Shown: in pieces, positions 13,893-42,805 of the stretch
Layout: each line of letters opens with the position of its first letter
Numbering within the stretch: position 1 is the first letter of the stretch
Assembly (NCBI RefSeq): GCF_028743515.2
Contig: NZ_CP117969.2
Coordinates: 989,001 to 1,053,000, forward strand
Origin: Imtechella halotolerans
GTDB taxonomy: Bacteria > Bacteroidota > Bacteroidia > Flavobacteriales > Flavobacteriaceae
Direction of reading: 5' to 3'
DNA length: 64,000 nucleotides
Notes under the pieces: generated by a model
Databases searched by the model: none
The model's input: the letters and a program-made list of their open reading frames with translations, nothing else
Told to the model about the DNA's origin: nothing
Program-made: the position numbers and the translations under genes

Positions 13893-15020
13893 ATGAAAAA
13901 GGTTACTATTTTTATTTTGATGAGTGTATTTACAACACTTTCCATTCATGGCCAAACATCTACAGTTACGTACGAGAACTTATTTGGAAAAATAAGATTA
14001 AAACGTTCATATACCTATATGGTTACTACTGATAAAATCAGTGAGGATGTGTATTTTGTAAAACGATATTTAAACAATGGAGAATTGGAGCCTATTTTAT
14101 TTGAAGAATTGTATGTAAATGCTCAAGGCATTAAAAATGGATCCTATATAAAATACGAATCTAATGGGTTTAAAAAACAAGAAGGTTCCTATCGCAATGA
14201 TAAAAAAGAAGGAATTTGGACCTATTATGCTGATAATACCCCCATTAGAGAAGGACAGTATGAACAGGACAACAGAGTTGGTCCGTGGAAAAATTATTAC
14301 AACTTCCCGAATTACACTATCTTACAGTATAAGGATGGACAATTATACGGTTCCTTTGAATCAAAACATAAAAATGGGAATCTATCCTATCGGGCGCATT
14401 ATACCAATCAAGGTGAATTAGATGGTGCTAATACTAGCTATTATGAAGACGGAAAAACGATTCGAATACATAGAGATTACTATTTGGGTAAAATACATGG
14501 AATAGAAAAGCAGTATTATCAAAGTGGTCAACTCAAACTGGAAACTAAGTATACCAATGGTGAAATTGACGGAGAACTAAAATCATTTCACGAAAATGGA
14601 CAATTAGCTGCTGTAGTAACTTATCAAAATAACAATATCGTTAACACCTTACTTTATGACGAGAAGGGAATGAGCATTCCTATAGATACAAATAGGACTA
14701 CCGTATATCAGGATAGTGAAAGTATTAAAGAATTCAAAACTAAAGTTCAAAACAAATTGAATCAGTTTATTCAAGTAAATTTCAAATATCCTGGTACGAT
14801 GCAACGTATTGGTGCCGAAGCCAGAGTATTCGTCAACTTTGAAATAAATTCTAGTGGAGATCTTACCATTCTAGGGATGCGTTCGGATCAGCATCCGATG
14901 TTTGTTGAGGCCACAAAACAATTGTTTTCATTATTAAATGAAAAATTTCCATTTACGTATTATAATGTAGAAGAGAAAATAAGATTTACACTTCCTATTT
15001 TATATAATTTAAGCGATTAA
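13893..15020 (+). CDS. Secreted MORN/YwqK-repeat protein with TonB_C-like end
   Basis: 375 residues. Signal peptide about 1-20 (IHGQT). Residues 75-260 hold repeated strands of the form G-x-Y/W-x-x-Y-x-x-G-x-x-x-x-E-G (for example GSYRNDKKEGIWTYY, GQYEQDNRVGPWKNYY, GELKSFHENGQLAAVV), the MORN-like/YwqK pattern. The last 90 residues (ARVFVNFEINSSGDLTILGMR onward) resemble a TonB C-terminal domain. It is predicted to be periplasmic or outer-membrane associated. No toxin partner is adjacent, so the YwqK 'antitoxin' name should not be taken literally. Convergent with ggt, 8 bases apart. Confidence 0.7.
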   Translation: MKKVTIFILMSVFTTLSIHGQTSTVTYENLFGKIRLKRSYTYMVTTDKISEDVYFVKRYLNNGELEPILFEELYVNAQGIKNGSYIKYESNGFKKQEGSYRNDKKEGIWTYYADNTPIREGQYEQDNRVGPWKNYYNFPNYTILQYKDGQLYGSFESKHKNGNLSYRAHYTNQGELDGANTSYYEDGKTIRIHRDYYLGKIHGIEKQYYQSGQLKLETKYTNGEIDGELKSFHENGQLAAVVTYQNNNIVNTLLYDEKGMSIPIDTNRTTVYQDSESIKEFKTKVQNKLNQFIQVNFKYPGTMQRIGAEARVFVNFEINSSGDLTILGMRSDQHPMFVEATKQLFSLLNEKFPFTYYNVEEKIRFTLPILYNLSD

Positions 15021-39633: not shown

Positions 39634-40785
39634 GTGAACGTACTGAAAAACACTCACCCTCAGGTGTATGCTGTAGACAAAAGCCTTCATAAATTACTGA
39701 AGGATATTGAATTATTGGCATACTTGAATCCAAATAATATTGAACAAGAGAAGAAAAGGTTTTTTGCTTCTAAATATACCATCGAACCTGTTTTTACGTA
39801 CACAAAACCTAAGTTTGATGCCTATAAATTACAACGAAAACTATTTTCTCACCGATTAAGTCTTATTTCAGATGAAGCTATAAGAGCACTTTATGAAGAA
39901 ATAATTTACTATTACTCGGGTATGGTTCAATGTATTCATACCATTGGGGATGGAGAAAAATTTTATTATAATAGCTTTAAGGTTTTTGGAACACCTACCG
40001 ATAAAGACGTGGACAACGCCAGGTTTATTTTACATTTTAAGGATGTCACTGATCCCGATGCCATAAAAATTCATAATGCGGCCGCCGCACAGGCCTATTT
40101 TGAGAGCTTTTCGGAACATTATAATTTTCCTATAACCATTCTTCAATCTACACGAATTGCTTCTGATGCGATGGTTAAAAATAGTGAAAAGACATTACTG
40201 TTAAAAAAGAATGGCCATTTTAGTAATAATCAACTTAAAATATTAGCCCATCACGAAATTGGTGTACACTTACTGACCTCCTATAATGCAGCTGAACAAC
40301 CTCTTAAAATTTTCTCTAACGGTTTTCCAAGAAACGTAGAGACCCAAGAAGGACTCGCTGTGTTTAGTGAATATATGGCTGGGGCTTTAACATTGAAACG
40401 ACTTAAAACACTAGCTTATAGAGTTCTAGCTGTAGACAGCTTACGTAAAGGATATCGATTTATGGAGACCTTCAAATTACTTCATTTTGATTACCAATTA
40501 AATAAAGATGATGCCTTTACTATTTCCATGCGAGTACACAGAGGCGGAGGGTTTACTAAGGATTATTTATACCTTACAGGTTTGCAAAAAATATTCAATC
40601 ATTACAATGAAGGTAATTCATTAGATACCTTGTTAACCGGAAAGGTCACTCTGCAACATAAGGCAGTAATTGAATCTATGATGACACAGGGTATTGTAGT
40701 ACCTTCACTTCATAAAAACATGGCCTATAAAACCAATAGTAATACCAATACCACCGTAGATTTTATCCTAAAAAACTTACGATAA
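39634..40785 (+). CDS. DUF1704/MATCAP-like metallopeptidase, QEGLA-motif protein
   Basis: 383 residues, GTG start at 39634. An HExxxH site (HEIGVH, 207-212) is followed by QEGLAVFSEYMAG (238-250), the pair that defines the DUF1704 family. Relatives in animals remove C-terminal tyrosine from tubulin; bacterial members are described as flavohemoglobin-expression-modulating proteins. The substrate here is unknown. No signal peptide, so cytoplasmic. Convergent with the DUF4139 gene, one base between the stops. Confidence 0.85.
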   Translation: MNVLKNTHPQVYAVDKSLHKLLKDIELLAYLNPNNIEQEKKRFFASKYTIEPVFTYTKPKFDAYKLQRKLFSHRLSLISDEAIRALYEEIIYYYSGMVQCIHTIGDGEKFYYNSFKVFGTPTDKDVDNARFILHFKDVTDPDAIKIHNAAAAQAYFESFSEHYNFPITILQSTRIASDAMVKNSEKTLLLKKNGHFSNNQLKILAHHEIGVHLLTSYNAAEQPLKIFSNGFPRNVETQEGLAVFSEYMAGALTLKRLKTLAYRVLAVDSLRKGYRFMETFKLLHFDYQLNKDDAFTISMRVHRGGGFTKDYLYLTGLQKIFNHYNEGNSLDTLLTGKVTLQHKAVIESMMTQGIVVPSLHKNMAYKTNSNTNTTVDFILKNLR

Positions 40786-40786
40786 T

Positions 40787-42805
40787 TTATAGATTAACGT
40801 TTCTTCCTTTAGGGTATTTTACGGTATAACTGACTTTCTTGGTAGCTGACTGCTTGGAAGCAAGATGTACCTTCCATGTCACGATTCCTGTTTTTGAATC
40901 ATGATCTCCCTCAGGATATAAAGCGTCTTCAACTTTAATTTCTTTATTTTGAGATATTGGAATACGGTCTAATAGTGTAATTGAGATATCATTATTTTTA
41001 TTATTCTTTAGGGTAATCTCATAGTTTTTATCAAGAATCCGTGTGTTACCAGTAAAATTCTTTCCTTTAAAACTATTAATTTGTTTACGTTCCACAACAA
41101 TAGCAGGATCCGCACCTAAGGATACCACCAAAGCCTCTTCAATAGAATATGGATCTATGAAGGTCTTACCAGAATGACTACCTTCAAAATATATATTTGC
41201 CTCTCCAGGGAGTAAATCATATTGTTCCCAATCCATAACTTTTGCCGTTAAAAAAACACTCCTATTAAGGACAGGAACACTTACGTATTCATAGGTGGCT
41301 TGAATAGTAAAATTATTAATCTCCAGTACCGTAACATCTGTAATTGATGGAATGCTATACTTTTTTAAAATTCTGAATTCTTTATTGGTTAAACTTTCCA
41401 CTGCAAGCATCTTACGTGTGGTGATGACAATAGCACCATTAGAGGCCCTAGTTCCATATAATGAAGTAGCATTGCTACCTTTTAGTGTTTCCAATGACTG
41501 AATTTCTTCTTGATTAAGATGTGAGATATCATCCATTGGAACTCCATCCACTATATAGATAGGTTTTGCTTCAGCCACCATATTTTGCTGTTTGATTTTT
41601 AATCCTGGAGTACTTCCACTAAGGTCTTTAGCATATCCCATAACTACTACTTCCTCTAAGCGTTGAGAATCTTCTTCTAATTTAACATTCATCTGGCTTG
41701 CATAAATAGGAAGCTGGGTAGTTTTAAATCCCAGATAGGAAAAGGATAATTCGCGCCCTTCGCTAATTGATAAACGGTAATTTCCGTCAAAATCAGTGGT
41801 AGTTCCTATACGTGTACCATCGATTAAAACATTAACACCTGGCAGGGGAGCCCCAGACTCATCAACTACTTGTCCACTAACCGAACGTACCATAGGGTTA
41901 TATTTGTAAGAGGTTGTCTGAGTATTTTTTGTGACGGGTCTAGGCGCATTTGGATTTATAAAATCTAGGTAGAGAGGTGTAAGCTCTGGCCTTGTATTAT
42001 TTTCAGTAGGATCAGCGGTAGATAAGGTAATGGCTACCTGATCCCAATCAATACCTGTCTGTTGATAAATATGCGCTTTATAAACAAGAGAAAGTGGAGT
42101 TGTAGTACTGCTAGCTTTCAAATCATACACAGGAAACCATCCAGCTCCCGATACTAAATAATTAAGTTGAAGATTTACCGTTGTTGCAGTAGGAGTATCC
42201 AGTTTAAGCTTTATTTCCCCACGTTGCTCTTTTGTTTGGTTTTGTACTTTATTAAGTTCTTTCCTGAGATCAGAAAGTTTTTCATTTAATTCTCTCGCAT
42301 TTGTATTGAGGTCATACAGCTCGGTATGAATTGCAGCCATTCGTTCACGGTAGTGTTTTGCATAGGCTGAAATAGCCGCGACAGTGATACCCTGTTGATT
42401 GTTATGAATGCTTTTATTTGACTGTAAAAGTATTTGTTCCTCTTCAAGGCTTTTAATAGTACTTCTAACGATGGCAATTTCTCGTTCTGTTTTTTTATAA
42501 ATGGACTCTAACGAAGCAACTTTACCGGTAGCCTCTTTCTTTTCCATATAATTTGTAGAAAAGGTTACTGAAAGTATGGAAGCTGTTTTTAACCCGCTTA
42601 CCTGAATACTATTTTCATTAATAAGGGGAGATAATTCTGTAAAAACTATTTCATTAATACCCGGTTGCAATGTAACTGTAGCCTCACGTGTAATTTGCGC
42701 ACCACTTAGATATACAATCACATTTTTAATAGAAGAAGGGGTTTTACGCTCATTTGAGTAGCCCACTACCGAGAATAAAACAAAAAGGAAGTATATAAAT
42801 CTCAT
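40787..42805 (-). CDS. MuiA-like DUF4139 protein with nested CPD/SusC-plug module
   Basis: 672 residues. Signal peptide about 1-16. N-terminal DUF4140-like part (27-200; YLSGAQITREATVTLQPG) with a coiled coil, then a DUF4139 beta domain starting at about 210 (LNYLVSGAGWFPVYDLKAS). This domain is interrupted at 308-376 by a carboxypeptidase-regulatory-like domain (SGQVVDESGAPLPGVNVL) with the EEVVVMGYA linker (384-392), and at 413-465 by a TonB-receptor plug-like fragment (PIYIVDGVPM, GTRASNGAIVITT). DUF4139 then resumes to the C-terminus. No barrel follows. Probably periplasmic or outer-membrane associated; function unknown. Confidence 0.85.
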   Translation of the reverse strand: MRFIYFLFVLFSVVGYSNERKTPSSIKNVIVYLSGAQITREATVTLQPGINEIVFTELSPLINENSIQVSGLKTASILSVTFSTNYMEKKEATGKVASLESIYKKTEREIAIVRSTIKSLEEEQILLQSNKSIHNNQQGITVAAISAYAKHYRERMAAIHTELYDLNTNARELNEKLSDLRKELNKVQNQTKEQRGEIKLKLDTPTATTVNLQLNYLVSGAGWFPVYDLKASSTTTPLSLVYKAHIYQQTGIDWDQVAITLSTADPTENNTRPELTPLYLDFINPNAPRPVTKNTQTTSYKYNPMVRSVSGQVVDESGAPLPGVNVLIDGTRIGTTTDFDGNYRLSISEGRELSFSYLGFKTTQLPIYASQMNVKLEEDSQRLEEVVVMGYAKDLSGSTPGLKIKQQNMVAEAKPIYIVDGVPMDDISHLNQEEIQSLETLKGSNATSLYGTRASNGAIVITTRKMLAVESLTNKEFRILKKYSIPSITDVTVLEINNFTIQATYEYVSVPVLNRSVFLTAKVMDWEQYDLLPGEANIYFEGSHSGKTFIDPYSIEEALVVSLGADPAIVVERKQINSFKGKNFTGNTRILDKNYEITLKNNKNNDISITLLDRIPISQNKEIKVEDALYPEGDHDSKTGIVTWKVHLASKQSATKKVSYTVKYPKGRNVNL

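Follow-up and report, generated by a model that had tools for sequence, protein, structure and literature searches.

Positions 40787-42805 (-) of the window (a 64,000-nucleotide stretch of the Imtechella halotolerans genome) encode a 672-residue protein. Its domain matches assign it to the MuiA-type DUF4140/DUF4139 proteins, with a module derived from SusC/RagA receptors interrupting the DUF4139 domain. Such an insert is usual for the MuiA/DUF4139 protein in the host family, the Flavobacteriaceae. The insert is tentatively read as a TonB-docking module that comes from SusC-type receptors and now sits in a loop of a soluble periplasmic protein made of DUF4140, a coiled coil and DUF4139; we give this reading nearly an even chance of being right. 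It is supported by the nature of the module parts, the lack of a recognised barrel domain, the single insertion site, the separate clustering of the insert CPDs, the purifying selection on the insert and the conservation of the Ton box. At the level of titles and abstract openings, no paper on a SusC-derived insert in a MuiA/DUF4139 protein was found.

Domain organisation

The open reading frame is uninterrupted over its 672 codons (Table 1). PF13600 recognises DUF4140 at 78.7 bits against a curated cut-off of 27, and DUF4139 is covered by a single PF13598 match stretched over residues 212-666 (2.8e-56, 190.9 against 31.8 bits, Pfam). TIGR02231 (MuiA, NCBIfam) matches in two stretches, with 286.3 bits for a cut-off of 112.6. 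The likeness to the MuiA family thus extends over the whole protein, both of its domains being over cut-off. No lipobox was seen on reading the window protein, and a lipobox-like pattern occurs in five of 191 homologue frames; a periplasmic location is probable.

Table 1. Features of the MuiA-type protein and of its insert (positions in the window).
Feature	Position	Strand	Basis
MuiA/DUF4139-family protein with SusC-derived insert, 672 aa	40787..42805	(-)	ORF and Pfam/NCBIfam
Probable Sec signal peptide, residues about 1-17	42755..42805	(-)	Sequence reading, no prediction tool
DUF4140, residues 29-124	42434..42721	(-)	Pfam PF13600, 4.9e-22
Coiled-coil-like helical stretch, residues about 91-200	42206..42535	(-)	Weak coiled-coil-type family matches below cut-off; helices in low-confidence model
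DUF4139 first part, residues 212 to about 285	41951..42172	(-)	PF13598 spanning match; split point from alignments
CPD / SusC NTE domain, residues 308-376	41678..41884	(-)	PF13715, 5.1e-20; model fold match
Ton box LEEVVVMGY, residues 383-391	41633..41659	(-)	Motif, position after NTE, DNA read, conservation
N-terminal plug subdomain remnant, residues 392-412	41570..41632	(-)	Alignment with SusC genes
SusC plug C-terminal half, residues 413-465, including SusC signature 434-464	41411..41569	(-)	PF07715, TIGR04057
DUF4139 second part, residues about 473-666	40808..41389	(-)	PF13598 spanning match; split point from alignments

The inserted domains lie within the spanning DUF4139 match, as the preliminary description had proposed. 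An NTE is recognised by PF13715 (CarbopepD_reg_2) at residues 309-388 with 71.7 against 32.2 bits, and PF07715 matches a plug at residues 413-458 (1.6e-5, 25.8 bits for a cut-off of 23.9). The latter match spans profile positions 56-107 of 107 only, so that no complete plug is present: the fragment first described at 413-465 does resemble a plug, in its C-terminal half alone. TIGR04056 (SusC/RagA) reaches 162.8 bits (1.2e-47), under its whole-protein cut-off of 368.25, and TIGR04057 (SusC signature) 41.9 bits (6.2e-11), slightly under its cut-off of 46.2. The PDB chains matched by the sequence are all SusC/RagA or TonB-linked receptors (11 of 11, the best at 3.7e-23). The Pfam scan of the window protein returned no barrel family at E <= 1. 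Since no barrel was found and the plug is incomplete, the protein is not a SusC transporter, in agreement with what had been proposed.

Compared with SusC/RagA receptors (TIGR04056; PF13715, Ton box, PF07715 and barrel), the NTE, the Ton box and the C-terminal plug half are sequence-related and follow one another in the native order, with a remnant of the early plug preceding the plug half. The window protein differs by its missing barrel, by the near absence of the N-terminal plug subdomain and by the position of the module inside another domain. Most of the early plug is gone: LSGSTPGLKI of the window protein aligns with LQGKVAGLQI of SusC genes, and the plug half resumes at residue 413.

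A structural model of the insert was built from five sequences. Its best Foldseek match is the NTE of BT3090 (9hfj; TM 0.88 by target length, rmsd 1.3). Block means are mostly 81-89 for the NTE and 34-57 for the poorly modelled plug half. The Ton-box stretch is under 50 and belongs to a disordered segment at insert residues 81-125 (381-425 of the window protein). A whole-protein AlphaFold model from the single sequence has a pLDDT of 36 and says nothing on the packing of DUF4139 across the insert.

The Ton box

The levan SusC Bt1763 has an experimentally defined Ton box, VDEVVV, which is reported to stand right after the PF13715 NTE and whose deletion or mutation is reported to make growth as poor as in a strain devoid of SusD (PMC7782687). 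The window protein has the same order, with LEEVVVMGY following the NTE. The motif EEVVVMGYA, initially taken for a plug hallmark, is real and corresponds, by comparison with VDEVVV of Bt1763, to the Ton box. Motif, position, conservation and a pLDDT <50 in the five-sequence model together place this Ton box in a flexible stretch.

Conservation was measured as mean pairwise identity per block, over the 36 homologues used from the window's clade that bear a CPD. The identity of the Ton box is 0.71, that of the residues just before it 0.28 and just after it 0.32; the CPD stands at 0.54, the plug half at 0.46 and five core blocks at 0.33-0.56, these blocks being of different lengths. Residue L383 is invariant. 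Set against all stretches of its own length in the protein, the Ton box is 28th in conservation out of 640 nine-residue windows; among the 643 six-residue windows, residues 383-388 come 10th. Several core stretches are therefore better conserved than the Ton box, which was counted against TonB docking. The Ton box is among the best-conserved stretches of the protein, not the best one, and it is isolated between variable linkers as expected of a binding peptide. The conserved hydrophobic strand could be structural instead.

Distribution in related genomes

The family set contained 199 genomes of Flavobacteriaceae, one per genus. Receptor domains occupy the insertion site in 40 of its 45 readable homologues: CPD and half-plug in 25, CPD only in 14, plug only in one (L028) and neither in five. 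A significant Ton box is present in 41 of the 45. The preliminary description had considered that the insert might be merely normal for the family. It is indeed usual in the protein's own family but is not carried by all DUF4139 homologues, and the presence of receptor-derived domains at one DUF4139 loop in most members sets the host family apart from MuiA proteins at large. The collection contains no other genome of the window's genus, and the species has no close relative in the homologue set.

DUF4139 was also found in 31 of 148 genomes of the order, 254 of 395 of the class and 65 of 150 of one further genus, in sets that overlap. The family loci and part of the order, class and genus loci gave 191 distinct proteins, 74 with a CPD (25 of these also with a plug signature), 12 with a plug signature alone and 105 with neither; ten selected proteins scanned with Pfam fall into the same classes. 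As the proteins from class, order and genus were partly the best-scoring ones and partly chosen by match length, the 191 are not an even sample and no frequency is given for these three groups. The family set is nearer to an even sample, since it consists of the 46 genomes out of 199 with the gene, less a single broken frame (L049 of genome G117, split over three frames). Two observations among the 191 were counted against TonB docking. A significant Ton box is missing from 18 of the 74 CPD-bearing homologues, some of which have a weaker version, and it occurs in only one (L183) of the 12 plug-only proteins, nine of which are clear by eye and three (L219, L075, L079) short and doubtful.

In the phylum set, read by eye, DUF4139 was found in 51 of 118 genomes. 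In one family outside the class (f104), also by eye, two proteins (L292, L297) combine a CPD with a Ton-box-like motif, two (L306, L291) have Ton-box-like loops without CPD and one (L293) has neither. A search by back-translated peptides retrieved four receptor-type loci and no MuiA relative. Two adjacent DUF4139 paralogues were seen at L169 (family f36), L177 and L178, at L188, at L240 and at L241; at the last two loci the loop contents differ between the two copies.

Age of the insert and selection

On a tree that joins 72 insert CPDs with 69 receptor CPDs, the two labels need 10 changes, against a mean of 47 after shuffling. A branch with an SH-aLRT support of 95 unites 32 insert CPDs, that of the window included; the alignment has 87 columns and most other forks are weak. 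The core tree of the 191 proteins (FastTree, with many long branches) places the window protein in a clade of 38 with support 100, comprising 25 proteins with CPD and plug, 11 with CPD only and two without. The minimum number of label changes over this tree is 11 for the CPD and 17 for the plug.

Selection was estimated on the 96 CPD-bearing pairs with core identity >= 60%, of which 50 had a usable insert dS. The insert dN/dS (Nei-Gojobori) ranges from 0.09 to 0.46 in these pairs, which are not independent and many of which have dS above 1, and the insert is thus under purifying selection. Core dN/dS is 0.05-0.17. In every pair that yielded both values the insert ratio is the higher one, and this weaker constraint on the insert was counted against TonB docking. 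The insert is old and selected. Among the receptors fetched from the same genome (30 of 50 Plug matches, 30 of 60 CPD matches), the one nearest to the insert of the window protein has 37% identity with it, so that this insert shows no sign of fresh copying.

Receptor motifs and cassette exchange in the loop

The loops of the 191 proteins were scanned with position weight matrices made from 27 receptors of the window's genome, and significance was set by shuffles of each loop. The loop sequences are related and the motif counts given here are not independent events. Among the 102 short loops (under 100 aa, none with a CPD), 21 have a Ton box at p<=0.01 and 19 have LQGxVAGVxI, where about one was expected for either motif. 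As a control, one segment drawn at random from every one of these proteins was scanned as well, with 0 of 102 for both motifs. Of the 21 loops with a Ton box, 12 are from genus g128 (40 loops) and nine from outside it (62 loops). The Ton-box excess was counted for TonB docking and the 61 short loops lacking any significant motif against it; the similar frequency of LQGxVAGVxI, another receptor motif, is not what a pure docking account predicts. Where a loop has two or more motifs, their order is native in 52 of 63 cases and permuted in 11, two of which (L237, L238) are false calls inside a CPD.

The loops of genus g128 (L208-L256) are hypervariable: at one and the same site some have the Ton box and others LQGxVAGVxI or IRG. 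Four of them (L225, L256, L230, L233) share their ends around middles that read LQGRVSGLAL, LQGQVSGVAY, VAIRGAVS or NEVVVTAYG. The comparison comprised 69 pairs with core identity above 80%, including 13 at 95% or more. Loop identity is 30-60% in nine of these 13, all from two g128 species groups, and 86-91% in the remaining four. In the pair L219/L217 the cores are 97.9% identical (dN 0.0096, dS 0.25) and the loops 34% (dN 0.59 over alignable codons); at the DNA level the similarity breaks off sharply at either end of the loop. Within genus g128, loops are exchanged between species that share 95-98% core identity.

One case points, by sequence comparison, to the capture of an insert from a receptor gene within g128. 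Between the plug insert of L218 and a SusC encoded in the same genome (L312, the only receptor of that genome compared at the protein level), identity is 69%, with 68% DNA identity over 263 bases; with the next receptors in the set or the nearest other MuiA plug inserts compared, it is 47-50%. L312 is also the top receptor match of six of nine other inserts queried, at 35-54%.

Possible function of the insert

In the TonB-docking reading, the folded NTE and the solid plug half would flank the flexible Ton box, and TonB-ExbBD would grip this peptide by beta-strand addition. Instead of opening a pore, it would thereby recruit or pull the MuiA protein, in the way that TolA acts on TolB. We infer TonB binding from the receptor-like sequence of the insert and, a step further, a use of TonB force on the MuiA protein. 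Of the functions considered in the preliminary description, an interaction surface for TonB is the one favoured here, at a little less than even probability.

The comparison with TolB would be one of working principle only: a transducer of the TonB/TolA type would hold a soluble protein of the periplasm by a flexible peptide; no TolB family is among the listed Pfam/NCBIfam matches of the window protein. The transducer would be TonB instead of TolA, and the peptide is internal in the window protein and N-terminal in TolB. Both the TonB box and the TolB N-terminus are reported to be bound by strand addition (PMC12905483). Recognisable tol-pal loci are reported missing in Bacteroidota, and the CPD of the barrel-less protein PorE has been proposed as a hint of TonB-like force in Bacteroidetes (PMC12204202). 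PorE, a CPD-bearing outer-membrane lipoprotein, is likewise a barrel-less envelope protein. Its other domains are different, and neither a Ton box nor a plug half is mentioned for it in the part of that account used here (PMC12204202).

A profile search of the window's genome gave three TonB_C matches over cut-off. One of them is an odd, secreted-looking protein of 375 aa with MORN_2 repeats, encoded at 13893-15020 (+) of the window, about 26 kb from the MuiA gene. Its TonB_C match is borderline, at 24.2 bits for a cut-off of 24.6 when searched alone and 27.8 bits, over cut-off, in the genome search.

A loop that simply tolerates insertions, with the numerous receptor genes as donors and fragments that come and go by recombination with little function, is an unlikely explanation that nevertheless accounts for part of the data. 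The loop identities of 0.30-0.60 in nine of the 13 pairs with the closest cores, the non-native motif orders in 11 of 63 loops (two being discounted) and the resemblance of the L218 insert to a receptor of its own genome all speak in its favour. It does not sit well with the purifying selection on CPD-bearing inserts, with the separate clustering of insert and receptor CPDs or with a Ton box far better conserved than the adjoining linkers; moreover, the pieces recognised in the loops, by searches aimed at receptor sequences, are all receptor-derived. A scenario that would combine exchange with docking, to which we assign a similarly low probability, is that Bacteroidota use MuiA proteins as soluble TonB clients whose docking loop receives new pieces of resident SusC genes by recombination and in this way tracks changing TonB partners or receptors.

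Alternatively, the insert might mimic a plug and bind SusC-type barrels, SusD or the BAM machinery, as a decoy or an assembly factor, rather than TonB. Where the plug half has the receptor positions G421, Y450, G451 and G457 (25 proteins), these never vary, and D420 hardly does; forms with a plug but no Ton box also exist. CPD-only forms without plug are nonetheless common (14 of 45 in the family set), which speaks against this possibility, and we hold it to be distinctly improbable. That the insert is a non-functional relic of a gene fusion in the window's genome, an option raised in the preliminary description to which half a plug and the existence of insert-free homologues would lend some colour, is very improbable: it does not look like one, given that insert CPDs largely cluster apart from receptor CPDs, the Ton box is conserved, the frame is intact, CPD and plug recur in 25 and a CPD in 39 of the 45 family homologues, and purifying selection acts on the insert in the usable homologue pairs, drawn from a set without close relatives of the window's species.

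In the parts of the literature used here, TonB has transporters as its native partners in the outer membrane. If the Ton box of this barrel-less protein works, the role of TonB would be extended beyond transport, and the docking reading, if true, would provide a first testable mechanism for the MuiA/DUF4139 family. The NTE travels here with a Ton box and without a transporter, and this would bear on what the NTE does in SusC.

Genomic neighbourhood

The gene for the MuiA protein lies tail to tail with a gene for a MATCAP/QEGLA-type tyrosine carboxypeptidase-like protein (PF08014) at 39634-40785 (+). The neighbours were compared over 17 loci, that of the window and 16 others, among which L048 and L049 end early at contig ends. 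Homologues of the MATCAP/QEGLA gene are near the MuiA gene in 13 loci and those of a DCC1-like gene in 14; a further neighbour in the window, presumably a symporter-like gene, has homologues in 11. Over these 17 loci the comparison gave no functional clue to the MuiA protein. Elsewhere in the window's genome, at about 1554307-1554945, a SusC-like frame (L110/L167) of only 533 aa is found close to a full-length SusC-like gene with a very similar start (L112, at 1559272), and it is possibly a truncated or broken receptor.
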